From Spirogloea muscicola (taxonomy: Eukaryota; Streptophyta; Zygnematophyceae; Spirogloeales; Spirogloeaceae): 57,607 bases of DNA. The stretch lies in assembly GCA_009602725.1 (NCBI GenBank), contig WELB01000210.1, forward strand, positions 75,618 to 133,224, written 5' to 3'. This document shows, one piece after another, positions 400 through 37,586 of this stretch. A model generated the notes under the pieces. That model made no database searches. It was not told where the DNA came from and worked only from the letters and a program-made list of their open reading frames with translations. The position numbers were made by a program, and so were the translations under genes. Position 1 is the stretch's first letter. Each line of letters begins with the position of its first letter.

Positions 400-600
400 G
401 CTGTGTAAGTACCACGGCAGATCACAGCTAAGTGATACCTAGCTAGCAGCCGCAAGTCAGAATGACTAGCAGCCGGGAATGAAAAGCGCGGCCATATTGA
501 CTGGTGGTTGTGAGAGGCCAGCACAAAGGAATGGACAAGGTCTGAAGGAGTCGGATGGCGCAGAAAGCAAGGTACTAAAGTGGAAAGTGGTCCCCTTGTC
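400..600 (-). repeat. Decayed copy of the dispersed repeat family of 32.7-36.7 kb
   Basis: Read on the minus strand, about 430-480 translates to a stretch ending SDLRLLARY, a degenerate form of the SDLxLLTRGY-stop tail found many times near 33-36 kb. On the plus strand, about 485-560 (gcggccatattgactggtgg, then an aaaggaatgg-caaggtctgaagga block) closely matches 35757-35868. It is a lone outlying copy of that family, about 32 kb from the main nest. Confidence 0.65.
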
Positions 601-2045
601 AACAGCCAGAGTCAGCAGCTAGGAGGAACACTCTTCCCAGTAGAGGGCTATGGCTATGATTGGCCAGCCCAGGAAACAAACAAAAACGCCGCCAGCTACT
701 CTAGCTCTGGCTCGTCCTGGCTCCTTGGCTCTTCCACTGGGCGACGCCTTGCGGATGCCATACGAGGACTTTCGGCTTCCAACATGTCCTGGCCCTTCCC
801 TCGCCCTGTCTTCTTGGGGTGCTGTAATGTAAATGTGGCGAATGGGCGGCAGATGCAACCAAGGAACGTAGATGCTGACATTTGTGCAACCAATTCATTG
901 ATTTCGTCTAGAAGCACAAGAGTGTCTGGGGCAGTGACTGTGGAGTCGCCCTATGTAGCGATTTCCAGAAAATGAAGCAGCAGGTTAAACCAATAAGCTC
1001 ACATTCTCGCCGCTGCTGCCAAACAAGTGCTCTGCTGGGAATGTGCTCGGCCAAACTCTTCACTTTGATATTTTGTGGCTGCTTGCATGTAGAAAATATT
1101 GCAGCGGGCAGGCTTTGCAACTGCATGAGGATGTCCTGCTCCAGAGTCCAGCTTTGAGTCGTGTCTATACTTATACTGGGTCAATATGCAAATGTACACC
1201 TCGCATACACTTTTCATGCAAGTAGCATGGCTCAAAATGTGGGGAGCATGTTCATCTTCGGATTTTCTCTTGCGTATCAAAGCCACTGATATGCTCTGAT
1301 TCAGCCAAGCACAACAAAGAGGTTGCCAAAGATATATCCTACATTATTGAACACCTGTCACCTGCCGAAGGTGACCACCTTTGCCTGACCCTGGCTATCT
1401 TCCTATCCTCCGCTCGAGTCAAATGCACGAGCTTACACATGCATTAGCCAGCAAACCACCTTGACGTTAGGGTGACGATGTAAACAGTTGGAGCCTGGAT
1501 AACAGAGTGTTGTGTAAACGATAAACTTATCAAAAGTACGAAGGAAGGCCAACAGCGAAGGCAGCTCTGTATCTTTACTGAAGCTGAGGTGCGAAAGCAT
1601 GGGGAGCAAACAGGAGTAGAAACCCTGGTAGTCCATAACGTAAACAAGTCACTGTGACTGAGTATCTCAACTGACGAACGCGCACCAAGAAAACTCTGCT
1701 TCCTCCTCAACAGCGCAAGCCTTCGGGGACCGTCTGCAGGGAGCCGCGGGGGCTGACATGCTAAGACGTGTGTCTAAGTTGTCCTCATCACGCCTCATCC
1801 CTCTCTTGCTCCCCCCTCCATCTGCTAATTGCCGACTACCCGCCCCAATGCACACCACTGCTGCCACTTGCGGCCCTCAGACAACAAAGAACTGACATCG
1901 CACCGAGGCACCAAAGGCGAGAACAATACTTGCTTGAATTTCAAGCACAAGAGCGGCTTTGGAATCCACTGGAGGAGAGAATTGGGATTTTGGAGGGAGA
2001 GAGGAAGGAGAGCGAGAGAGGGCTAGAGACATCTCCAGTGCAACT
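601..2045. other. No confidently identified gene; possible minus-strand exons at 620-920
   Basis: I recognise no product here. The only coding-like signal is on the minus strand. A segment at about 850-900 reads DEINELVAQMSAS after a cttctag acceptor. It could join in phase to a segment at about 640-845 (SRKSSYGIRKASPSGRAKEP, basic and Ser/Arg-rich) that follows a ttacattacag acceptor. No homologue comes to mind and no start is seen. From about 950 to 1750 both strands are broken by stops. From 1750 to 2045 the sequence leads into the 3' end of RPS3A. Transcript evidence would be needed to call a gene. Confidence 0.25.
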
Positions 2046-3732
2046 CTACGCGCCGACAACTTTAGTGGGCTCTGTCGCCTCGCCCTCGCCGTCCTCAGCG
2101 GGCCGCTCCACCTTGGCACCCACCTCCTCGCTGTAATCCCCGTGCACCTGCACGCAAATTTGGAACAACAGCGTCAGCTCAAGGAGGGAGGTGAAAGCAG
2201 GGGCCAGGCTAGAGGGAGAGGGGTGTGGAGGGGCTGTGGCGGTCATTTTATGGCACGGCGGCACTACTCGGCGAGTGCCGCTCCGCCGCGCCATCTTCCG
2301 GCCGCAGCGCTCGCTCTGGGCGCCTACGCGGCAGTCGCCCCACCGTGAAACTGGGCAGGGTGCTGCTTGACTAGGGCCCCCTCCCCCTCTCCGTAACCTC
2401 CTCCCTCCTCTCTCGAGCTCTTTCCCTCTTCCTCCCTCGTGCTCCTATGACGTGTCCGCTCTCAGGAGTCCTCTGAGCTCGCCCCCACTTCGCTTGTACT
2501 TAGACTTCTTCTCACTACGTCTCTCGAGGTCTCTGCTCCTTACCTCCATAAGGCGGCTGAGGTCGAACTTGGGCGCCTTGAGCACCTTGACCTTGCGCAC
2601 GTACGCGTTCTGGAGCGGGTAGATGCCCGCCGCGGCCTTCTCGACCTCCTTGCCCATGACCTCGGGGATGAGCTTCGCCACCAGCTCCCGCAGGTCGCAC
2701 GCTGCCGACTCCTTCACCATGATCTCCCTCATCTTCCTCCGAATCTGAGCGCCTCAGTCATGGCCACCAACACGGCCATCAGGAAAATTGACCAGGGGTA
2801 AAGGGAGCGTGAACCTCAGGAGCAAGAGGAGGGAGGGGGAAGGTGGCGAGCAACGACGGACCTGGCGAATCTGCGCCGTCTGCGCGTAGCACGTGCGCTT
2901 GATCTGGTTCGGCCGCTTCTTGGTGAACGCAATGGCGAAGAGGCGCAGCGTGTAGTTGTCGGTCGTCTTCACGTCCACGTGCGCCTCGATGAGCGACTGC
3001 CACTTGCGCACCAGCGACCGCAGCTTGTCGGTCGTGAAGTCCATGCCCTGCGCCAACGCATGGCAATGGAGGGACGTCAGCCGCAAAGTGGCGAAGTTGG
3101 AGATGAGGACAATGTTAAGAAGGAGCAGAAGAGGAGTCGAGGAGGGCTGACCCAGAAGTTGGTGAGGACGTTGCGGCCCTGCACGTCCTCGGCGCGCAGC
3201 TTCATCTTGCGGAACGCCTGGTCCTCGTCCTGCTGCAGGTCCGCCAGCGACACCTCGAACACGCGGCCCTTGAGGCCGTCCGACGCGATCTGCACATCGT
3301 GGGCCTCGGCGTTAAGCACTTGGGCTCGAAGCTCGACCACACAGCGGCCTTGACGCTAACAGCGGCAGCCGAGCTGCCATGGCCGGCGGTCGTCGCGCAA
3401 CGCACCTTGGTGCCCTGGGTGCGCGTGACGAGCGTCTTGCCGATGGAGCGCTGCGTGAACATGGACGGCGCCTTGACGTCGTACCAGTCCTTCTTGGCAA
3501 ACGGGTCCATCCTGCACACCACAGCGAGCCGCGGCCGAGACCATCACACCCTCGCCAGCCACTAGAATCGCCACAGGGCCCCCTGGCCATCGTCGCCAGG
3601 CCCTCCATCGCCAATGGCTTCCTGACGACGAGATAGTGAGAGACGGAGCAGAGACGGAGTAAGAGTGGAGGAGAAGCTCCTCACGCCTTCTTCTTGCCGC
3701 CCTTCTTGCCCTTGGAGATGCGCTTGTTCTTC
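2046..3732 (-). CDS. RPS3A: 40S ribosomal protein eS1 (S3a)
   Basis: Structural protein of the small cytosolic ribosomal subunit. Minus-strand exons, 5' to 3': 3732-3685, 3511-3406, 3289-3152, 3047-2862, 2744-2544 and 2147-2046 (stop TAG). The joined product follows eS1 almost end to end: the basic start [15 protein letters not shown], then [69 protein letters not shown] and the tail [15 protein letters not shown]. All junctions keep phase and use GT-AG. The first coding exon is missing: the family begins M-A-V-G and 3732 is a splice acceptor completing a Gly codon. The upstream ATG must lie in or beyond the GCC repeat at 3784-3809, and I cannot find it. The gene is divergent from the GNAT gene. 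Family identity is certain; the start is not. Confidence 0.95.
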
Positions 3733-3783
3733 CTGCACACGCGGCGGCGGCGGCCTGCATCAGCCGCGCCGCCCGCGCCGTCT

Positions 3784-3809
3784 CCGCCGCCGCCGCCGCC
3801 GCCGCCGCA
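3784..3809. repeat. (CCG)n tract between RPS3A and the GNAT gene
   Basis: About 26 bases of uninterrupted CCG triplets. It lies upstream of the RPS3A exon at 3732-3685, where its first coding exon or 5' UTR should be. Such tracts collapse easily in assembly, which may be why the RPS3A start codon cannot be found. Confidence 0.7.
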
Positions 3810-3887
3810 GCTTGCTGTGTCCGGGGCGCTCCCGCGGCGGACTATGGCTGCTGTGTGCGGCCAGAGCGGCGCGCATAATCCGGCGCA

Positions 3888-5244
3888 ATGAGCAGCGTGA
3901 CAGTCGTGAAAGTAGCTAAACAGGAGGAGTGAGTTCTACGCTTCTGGATGCCAGATCTGCATGCCGCCGTGCTGATCGTCAACTACTGCTTCGTTCCAGC
4001 TCATTTCCGGTAGCGCTTAGGACCTAGCGGCCAGTGCCAGCTGCCTAGTCGCCGCCAGGCCGAGTTCGCCGGACATCCTTTGATATTTTCTATGACGCCA
4101 GGACTCGTCGCATGCCAATGCTCATGTTGCAATGCCCGTGAGAAGTACTTAGCACAACATATACCGTCCGATCCGCTGTTGACTGCAGTTCGGACAATAC
4201 AGGCGGATCCGGCATGACGTCTTTGTGATTGGTCAGGGAGTTCCAGAAGGTTGGGGTGCCAACTTTTAGCACTCCCTTGGGCTCTCATCTTAAGTGAATA
4301 AGGGCTCGCGCTGCTGCTTTGAGAATTGCCAACTTAATTTCTCGTATCAAACTTACGGCCTTCAGGTGGTTGGCACGTCTTCCCCTCATTAGCCTCATTG
4401 GCTGGTCATAGCCTTTACACTGTTAGGAGGTGCCCCTTCATAAAGTTCTGTGTAGCAGCCTCATGAAGGCAAGCAATGGAAAACCTGATTGCCTCGTGTT
4501 GATGATGTTACTCATTAGTTCGTGCATGTTCCTTGTCCAGAAGAGGAAGTTGACGAGTTTGACGAAGGAGCCCTGGTGCACGAAGCAACAAAACGAGCTG
4601 CTCATTTCTTGGCTTTTGTGAATAGTGTCCCAGCCGGCACAGGTGTGCTGCCTCTGGTGCAGCTGACCTCCCCATGATTCAAGGATCAGCTCAGTGTGTG
4701 ACCAGCAGAAGGCTGATGGGATCTCTGAGCAAAAGCAAAAGCAAAAGCTGCGGATAAGTTCATAGCAAGGACTTTGTCAAGACCTCCACTGGTGGATTGT
4801 AGCAATTTGAACTCCACACAGAGCACGGGCAACTTACAAGTCCATCTCCTATTTTTACGCCTACAGGTAGGCTCCTGACTTACAAGGCGCCAGGTGAGCT
4901 TGCCAAGGTCGGGCGCATTGCCACTTCGCCGGACTTTCGACGTCAGGGGGTTGTTAGGGCCACTATGCTTGCCATTCATGTGAGCTTTACCTTTCCAACA
5001 TGCTATAACACTGCCTCACAGGTAGGGATGGCAGGACAGAGGAGGTGCTCAGCCAATGGCACAGGCCATCTCTCACGGTGGCTTTCCCCAGAACGAGGCA
5101 CATCAGTTGGCTTATGCCGGTCGCTACCTAGGAGCACAGCTGGATGCTTGCAACTTCTATTTGTCCCTGGGCTACATATTTCAATCAGAAGAGGTGTTTC
5201 TGGATGCTGGAATCAAGCACCACTGGATGGAAATGAGACTCTAA
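3888..5244 (+). CDS. GNAT-family N-acetyltransferase (YjcF/ElaA-like)
   Basis: A small acyl-CoA-dependent N-acetyltransferase of unknown substrate. Solid exons: 4189-4249, 4541-4642, 4867-4979 and 5053-5244 (stop TAA), all in phase. The product reads IRHDVFVIGQGVPE, then EVDEFDEGALVHEA, VPAGTGRLLTYK, VGRIATSPDFRRQGVVRATM (the acetyl-CoA loop, Q/R-x-x-G-x-G/V type) and FYLSLGYIFQSEEVFLDAGI near the end. That matches the short YjcF/ElaA type, about 150 residues. The acetyl-CoA loop reads RRQGVV where the family has R-x-x-G-x-G/A. A likely first exon is 3888-3928: ATG, then SSVTVVKVAKQE, then a GTGAGT donor. Its phase does not join directly to 4189, so a small linking exon is missing from my model. 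Neighbours give no hint of the substrate. Confidence 0.85.
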
Positions 5245-31600: not shown

Positions 31601-32494
31601 CGCTAACACGCCGCCGTGAGACTGGCACACCCACCCCCGTATGCAACCATATACTTTCACCCCTGAATCACGAAGTTGACTTCTATATGTGGGAACTCAC
31701 AAAGGCAGCATTCAGATGCACTGGTCTGAGCTGTGCTGCAGAACGAGCGGCAGCACTCGATGCATTGGACTTAGCTGTGCTGCAGAGGAGGTGGTGCTAG
31801 CTGAGTAAGTTAAGCAAGTGTGTGTGACCCATGGGTCACAGCCACATGGACTTGGCCTGCTGCTAAAGCATCAGGTGACTCACGTGGCCATGGTGCGTCT
31901 CCAGTCCCCGATCTTCCACCCTGCAGTTGCCATTCAGCCCCAGCGACTGGACGGGCACCTGCTGCTCGGCACACAGTCGCACGACGAAGCTGGCCACAGC
32001 GTGAGCAGACGCTCGACGAGCGTGAGCTGCGAAGCACGGCCCTCTTGTAGCCTGTGTGCGCCTCTGATAGCCCTTATGCAGCAAGCAAAGGCCGTGACAG
32101 GCAACTTCATGACCAAGTGCGGCGCAGCCACAGGAGGAGCAGGACGGCGACGGACCTCGTCCTCCTCCTTGGGCTTCTTCTTGAAGTAGCAGAGGAGGCG
32201 CGGCTCCAGCACAAAGTAGCGCTTGTGGAAGAAGGAGCGGCCGATGGCGCGGCGGCCGAAGCGGAACATCCAGCCCTCCACGAGCGGGGGGCTCGTCTGG
32301 GCCAGGCCGTTGAGCGACTTCTGGCGGCGGATCTTGGAGGAGCTGTGGGCCTCCGCCAGCGCGCCGACGTACGGCGCCACATTCTGCAGCACCGCCGCGT
32401 CCAGCGTGCTGCCCTGCCGCTGCACGTAGCTCGGCACCGGGCTGCGCGACCCGCCGCCGCCGGCGCGCGGGATGGAGCTCTTGGTGCCGGCCAT
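25661..32494 (-). CDS. EDR2-like PH-START-DUF1336 lipid-binding protein
   Basis: In Arabidopsis EDR2 restrains salicylate-dependent cell death; PH binds PI4P and START binds lipid. Minus-strand exons: 32494-32156, 31961-31884, (one or more PH exons unresolved at 31263-31883), 31262-31170, 31146-31059, 30346-30251, 30088-30048, 29842-29748, 29585-29490, 29363-29287, 29085-29014, 28863-28702, 28517-28267, 28120-28084, 27877-27702, 27410-27309, 27113-27069, 26734-26591, 26405-26310, 26068-25967 and 25816-25661 (stop TAG). PH: VEGWMFRFGRRAIGRSFFHK, KRYFVLEPRLLCYFKKKP. START: GVVEASCSDIFELVMGMGET, QQGSLVEEVDGHTAVIYHAF, FLWPRDLCYTRYWRRNDDGS, SLVQHLVQLDLKGWGAHYVP, then LREWFAARDEDYV. DUF1336: CCWSVPDPCKFRVRSK, APAGENLMSLVAVDWYK, HYSMVFYFVA, LDGDDSFRNSRFKLIP, GSWIVRQSVGSTPCLLGKA, IDVNIGSSTVANGVLGLVFG, EELPERLIGAVR. 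About 780 residues are recovered; Arabidopsis EDR2 has about 720. The start ATG at 32494 is well placed. Confidence 0.93.
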
Positions 32495-32528: not shown

Positions 32529-32557
32529 TTTTTTTTTTTTTTTTTTTTTTTTTTTTN
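32529..32557. repeat. T28 homopolymer ending in N, upstream of the EDR2-like start
   Basis: Twenty-eight T followed by one N, 35 bases upstream of the ATG of the EDR2-like gene (A28 on its sense strand), so probably 5' UTR or core promoter. The N shows that the true run length is unknown. Confidence 0.9.
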
Positions 32558-32763
32558 TGCGGCGGGGCGGCGCGCGGCAGCCGCTCGCCTTGCTCCATGG
32601 GGGCCGGGCCCGTGGAGCGCGGTGGCGCGGCGGGGAGCTGCGCGCGGCTGCTGGCGCCTCTCGTCTCGTCGCCAGCGGGCTGCTGGCAGTGTCAGGGCCC
32701 GCGGCTAAGTCCAGGGGGGGCCCGATGATGGCTGCGGAAGGCCAGCCCGCCAAGAAGAGAGAA

Positions 32764-33001
32764 GGCGCGCGGGGCGCATGAATTGAAAGGGAGGCCAATT
32801 CAAGCCAATACATTGTTCAGGCAGAGTCGAGTGCAGACTAAACAATGCTACATAATACGGAGACCTAATCTAAGGTACCTAAGATGACATTAGTACCCAC
32901 GGGTGAGCACAAACAAATCTGACAAGCTAACTTGGGGAGCTGGAGCGCCGCCACGAAAGCCGGAGGCCTGACTTAGAGCGCGCCCTGCACGTTGACGAAG
33001 A
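32764..33001 (-). mobile_element. Short element copy 1, flanked by a 15-bp direct repeat
   Basis: The 221 bp at 32764-32984 are the exact reverse complement of 33550-33770. They begin ggcgcgcggggcg and end agagcgcgcc (imperfect terminal inverted repeat). On the minus strand they carry one SDLFVLTRGY-stop tail. The 15-base word gccaagaagagagaa occurs directly before (32749-32763) and again at 33002-33016, as expected for a target-site duplication around an insert of 238 bp. The insert lies about 270 bp upstream of the EDR2-like start codon. Confidence 0.7.
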
Positions 33002-33349
33002 GCCAAGAAGAGAGAAAGTGCTCGCCTATTGAGGATAGGGGCTGGAAAAGCCAGCCCAAAAGAGAATGAACAGAGTACGAGAAGGGGGCCAGGGGAAGCG
33101 CCACGAAATACAAGCACACAAAGAAACAAACCAGCTACGAATCACTCAGTAACCCCTGCTAAGCAGCCGCAGATCAGAGATGCTAGGCTCCTGGAAGAAA
33201 ATTCCGTGTATTAGAAACGAATGTAGGCCAAATGGCCAAGTACAAAGGCAATGGCTGGAAGTGGGGTCCCCTGGCGGCATATAAAGGCCCAGCATCAACA
33301 CACTTTGCTGGGCACGCAGTGGGCGGAGCAGAGCAAAGAAAACTGCGGC

Positions 33350-33950
33350 ATTACTCCGATTACCCCCAATGCGATCAACTCCTGCCAGCTGCAATCGACG
33401 TCTTTGGCTGTCTGGGTCCTCGCTTCCACACTCTGCTTCGAAACATTGCCAATCTAGGCTACACTCGACGTGCAGATGTGTTTCCGGCTGAGATGGGCTT
33501 GCCAGCTGCATATCTGTCGCTCTTGCGACAGAGAGAGAGAGAGAGAGAAGGCGCGCTCTAAGTCAGGCCTCCGGCTTTCGTGGCGGCGCTCCAGCTCCCC
33601 AAGTTAGCTTGTCAGATTTGTTTGTGCTCACCCGTGGGTACTAATGTCATCTTAGGTACCTTAGATTAGGTCTCCGTATTATGTAGCATTGTTTAGTCTG
33701 CACTCGACTCTGCCTGAACAATGTATTGGCTTGAATTGGCCTCCCTTTCAATTCATGCGCCCCGCGCGCCTTCTCTCTCTCTCTCTCTCTTGCGACGACG
33801 AGTTTCGGCCTGTTTGCAGCGTGCTCAGGCTAGTGCCTTGCACCAGAAAGCTGGACGAGCTCTAGTAGGTGGCAGAAGGGCTCCGTTCCTGGCATCTAGT
33901 ATTCATGCATCGAGTAGTGACCTTTATGTTGTGACCCGTGGTTATTGAGC
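33350..33950 (+). pseudogene. Relic of a repeat-element open reading frame, interrupted by element copy 2
   Basis: The plus strand at 33350-33530 reads LPAAIDVFGCLGPRF, HTLLRNIANLGYTRRADV, FPAEMGLPAAYLSLLR. After an insertion (33530-33786), a related frame resumes with LQRAQASALHQKAGRAL and ends SDLYVVTRGY-stop at about 33948. The same protein, without the insert, is seen on the minus strand at 36403-36665, so this copy is a split relic. The VFGxLG...LL and LQRAQA patterns recall, loosely, the C-terminal end of algal reverse-transcriptase ORFs; I give that low weight. Confidence 0.6.
33530..33786 (+). mobile_element. Short element copy 2, inserted inside the relic ORF
   Basis: It contains the 221-bp unit 33550-33770, 100 percent identical to copy 1 in inverted orientation. 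It is bordered by (AG)n aagg on the left and cctt (CT)n on the right. The word ctcttgcgac is found immediately outside on both sides (33520-33529 and 33787-33796), a probable 10-bp target duplication. The interrupted sequence is continuous in the related copy at 36.5 kb, which confirms an insertion. Inside, a plus-strand SDLFVLTRGY-stop tail ends near 33648. Confidence 0.75.
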
Positions 33951-36402
33951 GGGTCAATCTGCTGTAGGTTATGTAGATTTCTAGATGTGCTTGCCTTTGT
34001 ACCTGGCCATTTGGCCTACATATCTTTCTAATACACGATGCCCCTGGCCAGAGCCAAGGACCAGCTCTCCCGACGTCAGGGGCAGTGGCTGTGAGAAGGA
34101 ATCGCTCGTCAAAGCAAGGCAATGGCTGGGACAAAGAAGGGGGCAAGGGCTGTGAACAGCCAGCCCGACAGGAATTGACAAGGTCCGAGAAAGGGGCCAC
34201 AAATCAACGAACAACGAAAGCGCTTCCGGCAGAACGAACCACTTAGTAAACGCGAGTGAGGAGCCGCAAGCCAGAAAGACTCGCAGCCGCAAAGCAATCC
34301 CCCTGACGAAAGCCAGAGGCTGCAAGGCGTGGGCCACGGGCTAAGGAATGCCCGAATGAATGCACAGGCGGTGGACTGGCGAGCCGACGAGAGGCGGGCA
34401 GAGCCGGGGCCGTTCGGCGAGAAAGAGGGGGGCTGGGTATCCTCTTATTGTATTGGCGAGCCATTTCCTCCCCCGTCGCCTGGCCTTCCCGTACCACAAG
34501 CGCCCAGTTCTCCACCGTTTCCCAGGGCGCGCAATTCCTGTTCCCAGCCGGCAGGCTCCCAGGGCTTCGCGGTGCTTGCACTACCTTTGCACTGATTGTG
34601 CCTCCCCTTTATCAATCATACTTCTGGTCTAGTCGGAATGCCTCTTTTCCAGCTGCAAGCCACTCCATTTGCGGCTGCTAACTCGGGCTTATCAAGCTCC
34701 TATTCGCTGTAGTCTCCTGCATAGCTGTGTGTCTTGGCTCTCTTCGGCGCTTTAGACCTTGTCCATTTCTCTGGGCTGGCTTTTCACAGCCCTCGCCGGC
34801 TTTGAAAGAGCTCACTTTCAATCCTGCGAGCGCATGGCGGTTCTTTACTTCTTCTTCAACCGCGCGCCATCTCTCCTACCCGTGAGCCGCATACTGGCTC
34901 AGCTTGGCCTCCCTCCCATTTCGTCTGTACTTGGCCACACATGCCCTTCAGCACTTGGTATTCATTCCACTTCGTCTGCACTTGCTGACTAGAGGTTATT
35001 GAGCACCTACTCGCAGAAGTCACGGATAGTATGTTCGTGCGCACCTTCTGGCCCCTTCAGACCTTGTACATTCCTTTGGGCGTCCACTTGGGCGTCCACT
35101 TGCGTGCAGGCCGCACCTTGGCTGCTGCTTTCGGGTTCCATCAAGGCGACAGTCTTCCGCCCGCTACTTCTACAGACCTGCACTTCTGACTAAACATTAC
35201 TGAGAGCCAGCCCACTTGTTGACGTCTTAGAGATCAGTTTCCTGCAATTCGGCCTATTAGACCTTGTCCAACCCTTTGGCTTTGGATATTGTCCATTCTT
35301 TTTGGGCTGGCTTTGCCAGCCCCTTTTCTCTATGGGCGAGCACTTCTCTCTGCTTTGTTTCTTTTTGTGCTTATTTTTCTTAGCGTTTCCCCTGGCTGCC
35401 TCTTTGGCCCCCTTCTCGTACTTTGTTCCTTCTCTGTTTTGGGCTGGCTTTTCCAGCTACTATCCTCAGTGGGCGAGCCCTTTCTTCTTCTCTCTCACAG
35501 CCACTGCTCTCAATCTGGAAGAGCTGTTTTCTTTTCTTTGGGCTGGCCTCTTACAGCTGATGCCTTACTTTGAGAAAGCTGTTTCTTTCTTTCTCTTCTT
35601 CAACTCCTGCGCACAGCCGAAAAGGAAGTGCTCGCCCGTAGAGAAGAGGAAGAGGGGCTGGCAAAGCCAGCCCAAAAAGAATGGACAATATCCAAAGCCA
35701 AAAAAGGAAAAGATGCCGAAAAAGGACTACACTACAAAGCAAAAGAAGAAAGCGCGGCCAGACTGACTGGTGGCTGGGAAAGAAGCGCGGCCAGATTGAC
35801 TGGTGGCTGGGGAAAGGCCAGCCCAACGAGAACCGCGGCCCAAAGGAATGGCCAAGGTCTGAAGGAGCCAGAGTGCGAAGGACTAGGACTAAGACATCAG
35901 CCAGGAAATGCTCAGTAACCTCTAGTCAGGAGATGCAAGTCTGAGTAGCTAGCCGGCGGAAAGACGTCGTCCTGATGGAAGCCGGAGGCCGCCGCCAAAG
36001 CTCGCAAGTGAACCGCCTGCGCTCAAGTGAACCGCAAAAGACAATGCACAGCGCGCGCCTTCTCTCTTTCTCTCTTCTTTTGGGGCTGGCCCACCACAGC
36101 ATGGGCAAGGCCAGCCCAAAAAGAATAGACAAGTGCAAGCACTGGCCACTTGAAACGAAGCCCTAATGAGAAGGGGGGCTGATGTAACACCGTGAATGCT
36201 GGCTGAAGGGGGACGTCAGTGCTCACGGGTGAGCTTACTCAACATTCGACAGGCGAACTTGGGGAGGCGGAGCACCGCCACCTGCAAAGAGCGATCAAGA
36301 GGAGCGGAACGTGTGTATTAAGAGATGGGGAGGCCATGTGTGGCCAAGTACGAAGGCAAGCACATTGACAAATGCACGTCACCTGCTGCTAAGCCGACCC
36401 GC

Positions 36403-36665
36403 TCAGTAACCACGAGTCAGCACATAGAGGTCGCTAACTGATGCTCGAATACCGGATGCAATCGACAAGCTCTCGAACTACCAGCCAAGGCTCGGCCAGC
36501 TTTCTGATGCAACGCATGAGCCTGAGCTCGCTGCAGACAAGCTGACACTCGACGTCGCAAAAATGACAGGTAGGCAGCCGGCATACCCATCTGGGCTGGA
36601 AGCATATCCTCGCGTCGTGCATATCCCAGACTCGCTATGTTCTCAAGTAGGGTATGGAAGAGGGA
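36403..36665 (-). pseudogene. Second relic of the repeat-element ORF
   Basis: The minus strand reads LFHTLLENIASLGYARREDM, PAQMGMPAAYLSFLRRR, VSACLQRAQAHALHQKAGRA. A small frameshift then leads to SDLYVLTRGY and a stop near 36403. It is colinear with the interrupted relic at 33.35-33.95 kb and about two-thirds identical at protein level by eye. Synonymous differences (ggt tat tga versus ggt tac tga) hint that the parent was a coding element. It abuts the 5' region of the eL36 gene. Confidence 0.55.
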
Positions 36666-36899
36666 AGACACAAGTGAAGTGTGTATTAGTGATGGAGAGG
36701 CCAAGAAAGAGGGGAGGGAGATGGAGGGCGGGGGACCACGCGCCCCTGCGCTGCGGCCGCGTGGCGCCCACAATCCCCTCGTTGACGGCACGCCGTTTGC
36801 CTCGTGCCCGGGCGTCCCGTCCGGCGACGGTCGCATTTCCGGGTTGAAGCAGGCCGCGGCTCCCCCAGGGTTTAAGCGGCCGCGCCCTAGCCGCCCACC

Positions 36900-36900
36900 C

Positions 36901-36933
<33 letters not shown>

Positions 36934-36934
36934 N
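36900..36934. repeat. (CCG)n tract ending in N at the eL36 start
   Basis: About eleven CCG triplets run into a single N at 36934, directly before the first recognisable eL36 codon. The single N marks a repeat whose true length was not resolved. Confidence 0.9.
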
Positions 36935-37586
36935 GCCTGGGCAAGGGCCACGTCGTGACGCGCCGCGAGAAGGTCGCCCGCCCGGCCCACCGCAAGGGCG
37001 TGAGTCCCCGCTCCCCCCCCTGCCGCCGCCGCCGCAGCCGCTGGGCGCTCCGGCTGGGCGTCTCGCCCTCATCGCCGAGGTGCGGGACGGCGGCCGCCGA
37101 GGTCCTGACCTCCGCTCTCGTGACGATGGGCAGGCCCTCGGGAAGCGCACCAAGTTCGTGAGGGAGCTGGTGCGCGAGGTGGTGGGCCTGGCGCCGTACG
37201 AGAAGCGCATCACGGAGCTGCTCAAGGTCGGCAAGGACAAGCGCGCGCTCAAGCTCGCCAAGAAGAAGCTGGGCACGCACCTCCGCGCCAAGCGCAAGCG
37301 CGAGGAGATGACCACCGTGCTCCGCAAGTCAAGGTGAGCCGCTTCCCGACTTGGCCCCATTGCGCAGCGACCACCTTCTGTGGAACCAGCAGTCACTTGC
37401 TGGGCCTGTGCTTGGTGGCTGCGGGGCACAGGCTTGGAGGGCCAAAGCGAAGCGGCTTGCGGCTCTCTCAGCAGTCATTCCCGCGTCCTGGATATGGGCG
37501 CTACCGTTTGCAAGTGCTGACTGTGTGGCCGGACTTGCAGGACGCATGCCACAACACATGCCACAGCGACCGACAAGAAGAAGTGA
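36935..37586 (+). CDS. RPL36: 60S ribosomal protein eL36 (start not visible)
   Basis: Structural protein of the large cytosolic subunit. Exons: 36935(or earlier)-36999, 37134-37333 and 37541-37586 (stop TGA), in phase. Exon 1 gives [20 protein letters not shown]. Exon 2 gives [56 protein letters not shown]. Exon 3 gives a short basic tail ending DKKK. This is the full eL36 pattern, about 105 residues in the family. The first 10 or so residues are lost at the (CCG)n tract (36900-36933) and the N at 36934. No ATG is visible in frame just upstream, so the tract may hide a first exon or an assembly collapse. Identity is certain. Confidence 0.95.

Follow-up and report, generated by a model that had tools for sequence, protein, structure and literature searches.

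The window examined here is the whole stretch of 57,607 nucleotides at positions 75618-133224 of contig C210 in the Spirogloea muscicola assembly (153 Mb, 471 contigs). It contains a nest of repeats that has two exons as neighbours. One of them (32123-32494, minus strand) belongs to a PH-domain-like protein, with a PH match below threshold, and the other (36882-37334, plus strand) encodes ribosomal protein L36e (E 4e-31). A poly-T run (about 32530-32557) and a CCG run (36934) each stop at a single N, which resembles joined assembly gaps. Searched with Pfam, none of ten long ORFs of the window matched a family. At 1418-1659 (plus strand) the sequence resembles a piece of small-subunit rRNA of bacterial type (52 bits; 34.5 bits, below the cut-off, in a shorter search) and is perhaps an organelle DNA insert.

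Within the nest, a loose pattern for a C-terminal peptide tail finds nine sites between 32890 and 36462. Eight are clear, three on the plus strand and five on the minus strand, as the initial annotation had observed in proposing at least eight such sites in both orientations; one of the eight reads LRLHLLTRGY and another SGLRLLTRVY. On the plus strand, the tails are at 33585-33644 (in a copy of a subfamily termed F), 33889-33948 (in a copy related to subfamily Y) and 34943-35002 (LRLHLLTRGY), with the ninth, degenerate site, PALLTKHY, at 35144-35203. Those on the minus strand are at 32890-32949 (subfamily F), 33146-33205 (subfamily R), 34243-34302 (SGLRLLTRVY and a stop), 35912-35971 (SDLHLLTRGY) and 36403-36462 (subfamily Y). 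The synonymous endings GGT TAT TGA, GGG TAC TAA and GGT TAC TGA, reported earlier, are each found in the nest. A stricter motif, S[DG]Lxx[LV][TSAN][RK][GVS][YFH]stop, occurs seven times in the nest, which accounts for all its occurrences in the window, and is absent from every one of 200 dinucleotide shuffles of the nest. A further site had been placed at about 430-480. A related peptide, SDLRLLARYH, can indeed be read there by eye on the minus strand, but the stop is missing; the site is a decayed copy of the element described below, which it matches at 458-563 (minus strand), at the left end of the window.

Aligned with longer genomic copies, notably those at loci L069 and L071, the nest resolves into a series of element copies. 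An F copy, truncated at its 5' side, occupies 32756-33006 (minus strand); its ORF ends at 32890-32949 and is followed by a 3'UTR ending in CGCGCGCCTTCTCTCT, and near-identical copies are found across the genome. Next to it, a 5'-truncated R copy (33005-33205, minus strand) is 84% identical over 33005-33197 to positions 3787-3966 of the L071 element and carries a GGGCTGGC hairpin in its 3'UTR (33018-33145); the hairpins named here and below are putative, predicted by folding the 3'UTRs. Directly upstream of this R copy and in the same orientation is the 3' end of another Y-like copy (33205-33251, minus strand; inverted repeat I7). Then comes a Y-like copy split in two on the plus strand. Its left part (33276-33529), which encodes HYSDYP..PAAIDVFGCLGPRFHTLL.., is 74% identical to L069 element positions 3469-3722, and its right part (33791-34036), with the 3' end AATACACG, is 73% identical to positions 3717-3965, so that 6 element positions are present in both. 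Between them sits an F copy (33550-33778, plus strand) of 229 nt, bordered by (AG)n and (CT)n and 100% identical to 32756-32984 of the first F copy, to which it is opposite in orientation. The word CTCTTGCGAC is found on both sides of the inserted F copy, though it may begin with letters that are part of the F tail.

Further to the right, tail pattern and element match identify truncated copies with hairpin-bearing 3'UTRs at 34121-34302 (minus strand, ending SGLRLLTRVY) and 35622-36004 (minus strand, ending SDLHLLTRGY), as well as the degenerate tail with its hairpin-type 3' end at 35144-35345 (plus strand). The copy at 34943-35081 (plus strand), recognised by its tail pattern, keeps the tail and part of the 3'UTR. 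A hairpin-type 3' end without a tail (35405-35489, plus strand) is 85% identical to L071 element positions 3881-3963, an old F-like fragment (36212-36281, minus strand) retains 77% identity over 70 nt, and a Y copy (36310-36660, minus strand) is 91.5% identical over 353 columns to L069 element positions 3616-3968. The truncation points differ from copy to copy, which bears out the earlier remark that upstream extent varies.

The initial annotation proposed that a full-length element with a reverse transcriptase (RT) would lie upstream of such tails. Genome searches with tail peptides, in which the best 150 places of 14,815 and the best 150 of 17,019 candidates were scored, revealed such an element. 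An open frame of 1267 codons is present in 7 of the 150 scored Y places. Seven full-length Y copies have their 5' end region in common. In the Y copy at L069, an ORF of 1255 amino acids starts with ATG and ends in the tail; two R copies have ORFs of 1273 (listed from GTG) and 1270 amino acids with the same ending. A Pfam RT search of the genome gave mostly other elements (30 loci, none with the tail) and did not bring this one to light.

The 1255-residue protein has an N-terminal zinc finger (sub-threshold in Pfam) and an RVT_1 match at residues 542-740 (E 9.8e-19), and gives no Pfam match to an APE endonuclease at E up to 1. Behind the RT come a CCHC knuckle and then a restriction-like endonuclease of the PD-(D/E)xK type, and an R2 profile match runs through both. 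Residues R1097, D1101 and D1116 of the endonuclease part are invariant in 7 sequences. The spacing of the knuckle, CX1CX11HX3C, is unusual with respect to the published CX2-3CX7-8HX4C (PMC5678591). Identity between Y and R proteins is 52% for the RT and 43% for the endonuclease part; in each of six regions compared, the two agree least at third codon positions. The intact element is about 4 kb long, without LTRs, with one ORF encoding zinc finger, RT, CCHC knuckle, endonuclease, a helix and the tail S-D-L-x-x-L-T-R-G-Y.

A profile built from 48 relatives can be aligned colinearly with R2 chains over the RT, the linker, the CCHC knuckle and the endonuclease (E 2.8e-55 with 9nl3), whereas it matches L1 ORF2p in the RT only (E about 1e-25). 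A structure model of residues 470-1255 (mean pLDDT 92.8, pTM 0.89) leads to the same neighbours. Among the Foldseek matches listed, ranks 1-7 are all R2 (E 4e-22 to 1e-18), followed by L1, and the closest folds are those of R2 (PDB 9nl3, 9dou, 9nl2, 8gh6; TMq 0.54-0.65). In the numbering of the model, an alpha-beta endonuclease core (585-717) is followed by a long helix (729-765), and the last 20 residues, including the tail, are predicted to be disordered (pLDDT mostly below 50). The algal element differs from R2 by this additional C-terminal helix and tail, profile positions beyond 935 being unmatched in R2. By sequence and fold, the element is an R2-like non-LTR retrotransposon with a restriction-like endonuclease, akin to the R2 elements of insects, the RT tree containing its relatives only. 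A 5' HDV-like ribozyme is described for R2 (PMC3774820); no Rfam match, at E up to 1, was obtained in L069 1480-1900, L071 or L072. As described, the NeSL clade, including Utopia, has a comparable single protein with N-terminal zinc fingers, a central RT, a C-terminal zinc finger and a restriction-like endonuclease (PMC4640811). The earlier view that the tail is the end of a retroelement ORF left by 5'-truncated insertions is supported, and the element can now be typed as R2-like; the type of endonuclease, the several subfamilies and the insertion of copies in copies go beyond what had been expected.

Genome-wide counts of 28-mers from L069, allowing up to one mismatch, start at 9 for the 5' end and increase through 12 (zinc finger), 24 (YADD of the RT) and 151 (endonuclease) to 1047 (tail), with reversed-pattern controls giving 0. 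This rise toward the 3' end matches what 5' truncation predicts, even if truncation is not its sole source, because among older copies the tail is better conserved than the rest. A degenerate tail pattern is found at 5033 places in the genome, and an exact F 29-mer at 449. Together with the ORFs, their domains and the copy found within another, this gradient makes it very probable that each tail is the C-terminus of a copy truncated at its 5' side, the copies belonging to several subfamilies (Y, R, F and others) of a single R2-related non-LTR retrotransposon. As for the biochemical steps, we infer that the enzyme would nick DNA and that copying would begin at the 3' end of the element's own RNA, by target-primed reverse transcription. 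Copying would usually halt early, leaving most copies with the 3' end only, and later copies would often land inside or beside earlier ones, thereby forming nests.

The short copies might instead form an independent SINE-like family with a 3' end borrowed from a LINE. Many F matches to the window query do span the same 250 nt and are near 100% identical. However, their shared 5' limit is the point where the query copy is itself truncated, other F copies reach further upstream in the same frame (L004), the gene models P0001 and P0006 have F-like tails behind an endonuclease, and truncation points vary among copies, all of which renders a SINE-like origin very improbable. Even less credit, close to none, can be given to the tail as a DNA or RNA motif that merely resembles a peptide, although hairpin sequences lie close behind it in several 3'UTRs. 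The full-length ORFs rule this reading out, and the nest tails switch between codon families for both Ser (TCA, TCT, AGC, AGT) and Arg (CGT, CGC, AGG, AGA), third positions being the most variable. Moreover, the ORF is uninterrupted and dN/dS among copies, a measure proposed in the initial annotation, is low. Its median is 0.15 for 30 Y copies compared with L069 over 110 codons, a value biased low because the copies were best protein hits; stops occur in 5 of these 30. A comparison of reading frames on copies selected by the tail peptide is circular, and it was therefore repeated on 59 copies chosen by the upstream helix, independently of the tail. Mean pairwise amino acid identity is 0.589 in the ORF frame, whereas the two remaining sense frames give 0.351 and 0.378 and no antisense frame exceeds 0.478, so the tail frame is the best conserved of all. 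Neither of the two outcomes by which the initial annotation would have been refuted, copies lacking a common upstream ORF and a tail frame conserved no better than the others, is thus observed. In this set, SDL stands at the same distance in 46 of 59 copies and the stop is at codon 37 in 47. Window duplicates in L001 were excluded from the dN/dS and frame counts. The shared ending is the selectively kept end of the enzyme.

With the truncated copies attributed to the R2-like element, the way in which they accumulate may be considered. The flanks of the seven full-length Y copies are unrelated, and a fixed target sequence, sought in 3' flanks, was not found. These differing flanks speak against insertion at one site of the 28S rRNA gene, and R2 differs in this respect from the algal element, whose seven copies lack a common insertion site. 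They likewise do not point to U2 snRNA genes, which Utopia is described as targeting (PMC4640811). Exact words of at least 7 nt flank only three of the seven copies, at uneven offsets, and the case for target-site duplications is therefore weak. A site-specific target for the element is not supported. Clustering, on the other hand, is apparent. Among 107 recognised 3' ends (27 F, 39 R, 41 Y), another element begins within 100 nt in 57 cases, with the same orientation in 39 of these. Element cover falls from 0.32 in the first 100 nt past 30 Y 3' ends to 0.20 at 600-1000 nt (29 loci), and amounts to 4.4% in the window as against 0.004 at the 30 loci of other RT elements (zero in 29 of them), figures obtained with an incomplete library and comparison sets that are no random genome sample. 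It may be imagined that the endonuclease is directed to the 3' ends of earlier copies, which are rich in pyrimidines, in line with the CTTTCTTC or CTCTCT tail that 3' ends have in common and with the shared orientation of neighbours within 100 nt of R-type ends (16/20, p 0.012). Such a preference is nevertheless rather unlikely. R alone is uneven, the orientation bias being absent for F (11/17, p 0.33) and Y (12/20, p 0.50). The weak pyrimidine excess (p 0.08 for Y, 0.03 for R and 0.83 for F) spans about 10 nt and could stem from the tail itself, the inserted F copy of the window sits in a coding part of a Y copy, and plain build-up in tolerant regions would also explain the clustering. Zepp elements of Chlorella and Coccomyxa are L1-type LINEs with poly(A), found as nested copies. 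The algal element resembles them as a LINE nested within a green alga, but its endonuclease is of the R2 type and the 3' ends examined lack poly(A).

In an RT tree of 46 rows, the element falls in a clade of 15 (support 99/99) comprising 3 Spirogloea, 5 Closterium and 7 unnamed rows. The Closterium and unnamed metagenome proteins have the same C-terminal helix and are 30-40% identical over the aligned part, but end, for example, in ADMQYIYDAYV where the Spirogloea element has SDLYVLTRGY. A motif [SAV][DE][LM]xx[LIVM] lies within 8 residues of the end in 6 of 18 relatives possessing the helix and a C-terminus, compared with a mean of 0.09 and a maximum of 2 in 2000 shuffles, a contrast that is post hoc, since the motif was composed after viewing the tails. 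The tree includes five of these six, all within the 15-row clade; P0005, the one it lacks, hardly differs from P0003. Three of the six come from Closterium and are nearly identical to one another. By eye, P0018 and P0026, of the same clade, have other C-termini without the motif. The tail thus has the appearance of a C-terminal peptide that this lineage has retained, though not in every member. Tentatively, it may be a docking peptide, S-D-L-x-x-L-T-R-G-Y in Spirogloea and the looser motif in the clade, that would be needed for transposition and would bind either a host factor or a second molecule of the enzyme. It would then represent a conserved handle, lacking in R2, that lies outside the catalytic domains, and it might guide new insertions into copies already present. 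Three proteins among the wider relatives, P0042, P0053 and P0063, additionally contain Pfam domains of the PHD, Ulp1-protease and OTU types.

R2-type LINEs are described as best known for site specificity (PMC4640811). Here, in an alga near land plants, about 5,000 tails of an R2-like lineage can be recognised; its insertions are scattered, and it includes intact copies that are nearly identical. The lineage offers a case for studying how target specificity is lost, how nests grow and how selection preserves a C-terminal peptide. The element is ordinary in kind, the new detail being the kept tail peptide and self-nesting; judging by titles, none of the publications found in the literature searches describes it. 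The element also explains a repeat leaking into Spirogloea gene models, several of which match it, including six SM... proteins (P0001, P0004, P0006, P0008, P0014 and P0019). For P0019 (SM000006S19526, s6:1315503-1317175), 457 of 534 residues align at 100% identity at the same coordinates on contig C6, and this agreement in coordinates and sequence indicates that the assembly carries those SM gene models.
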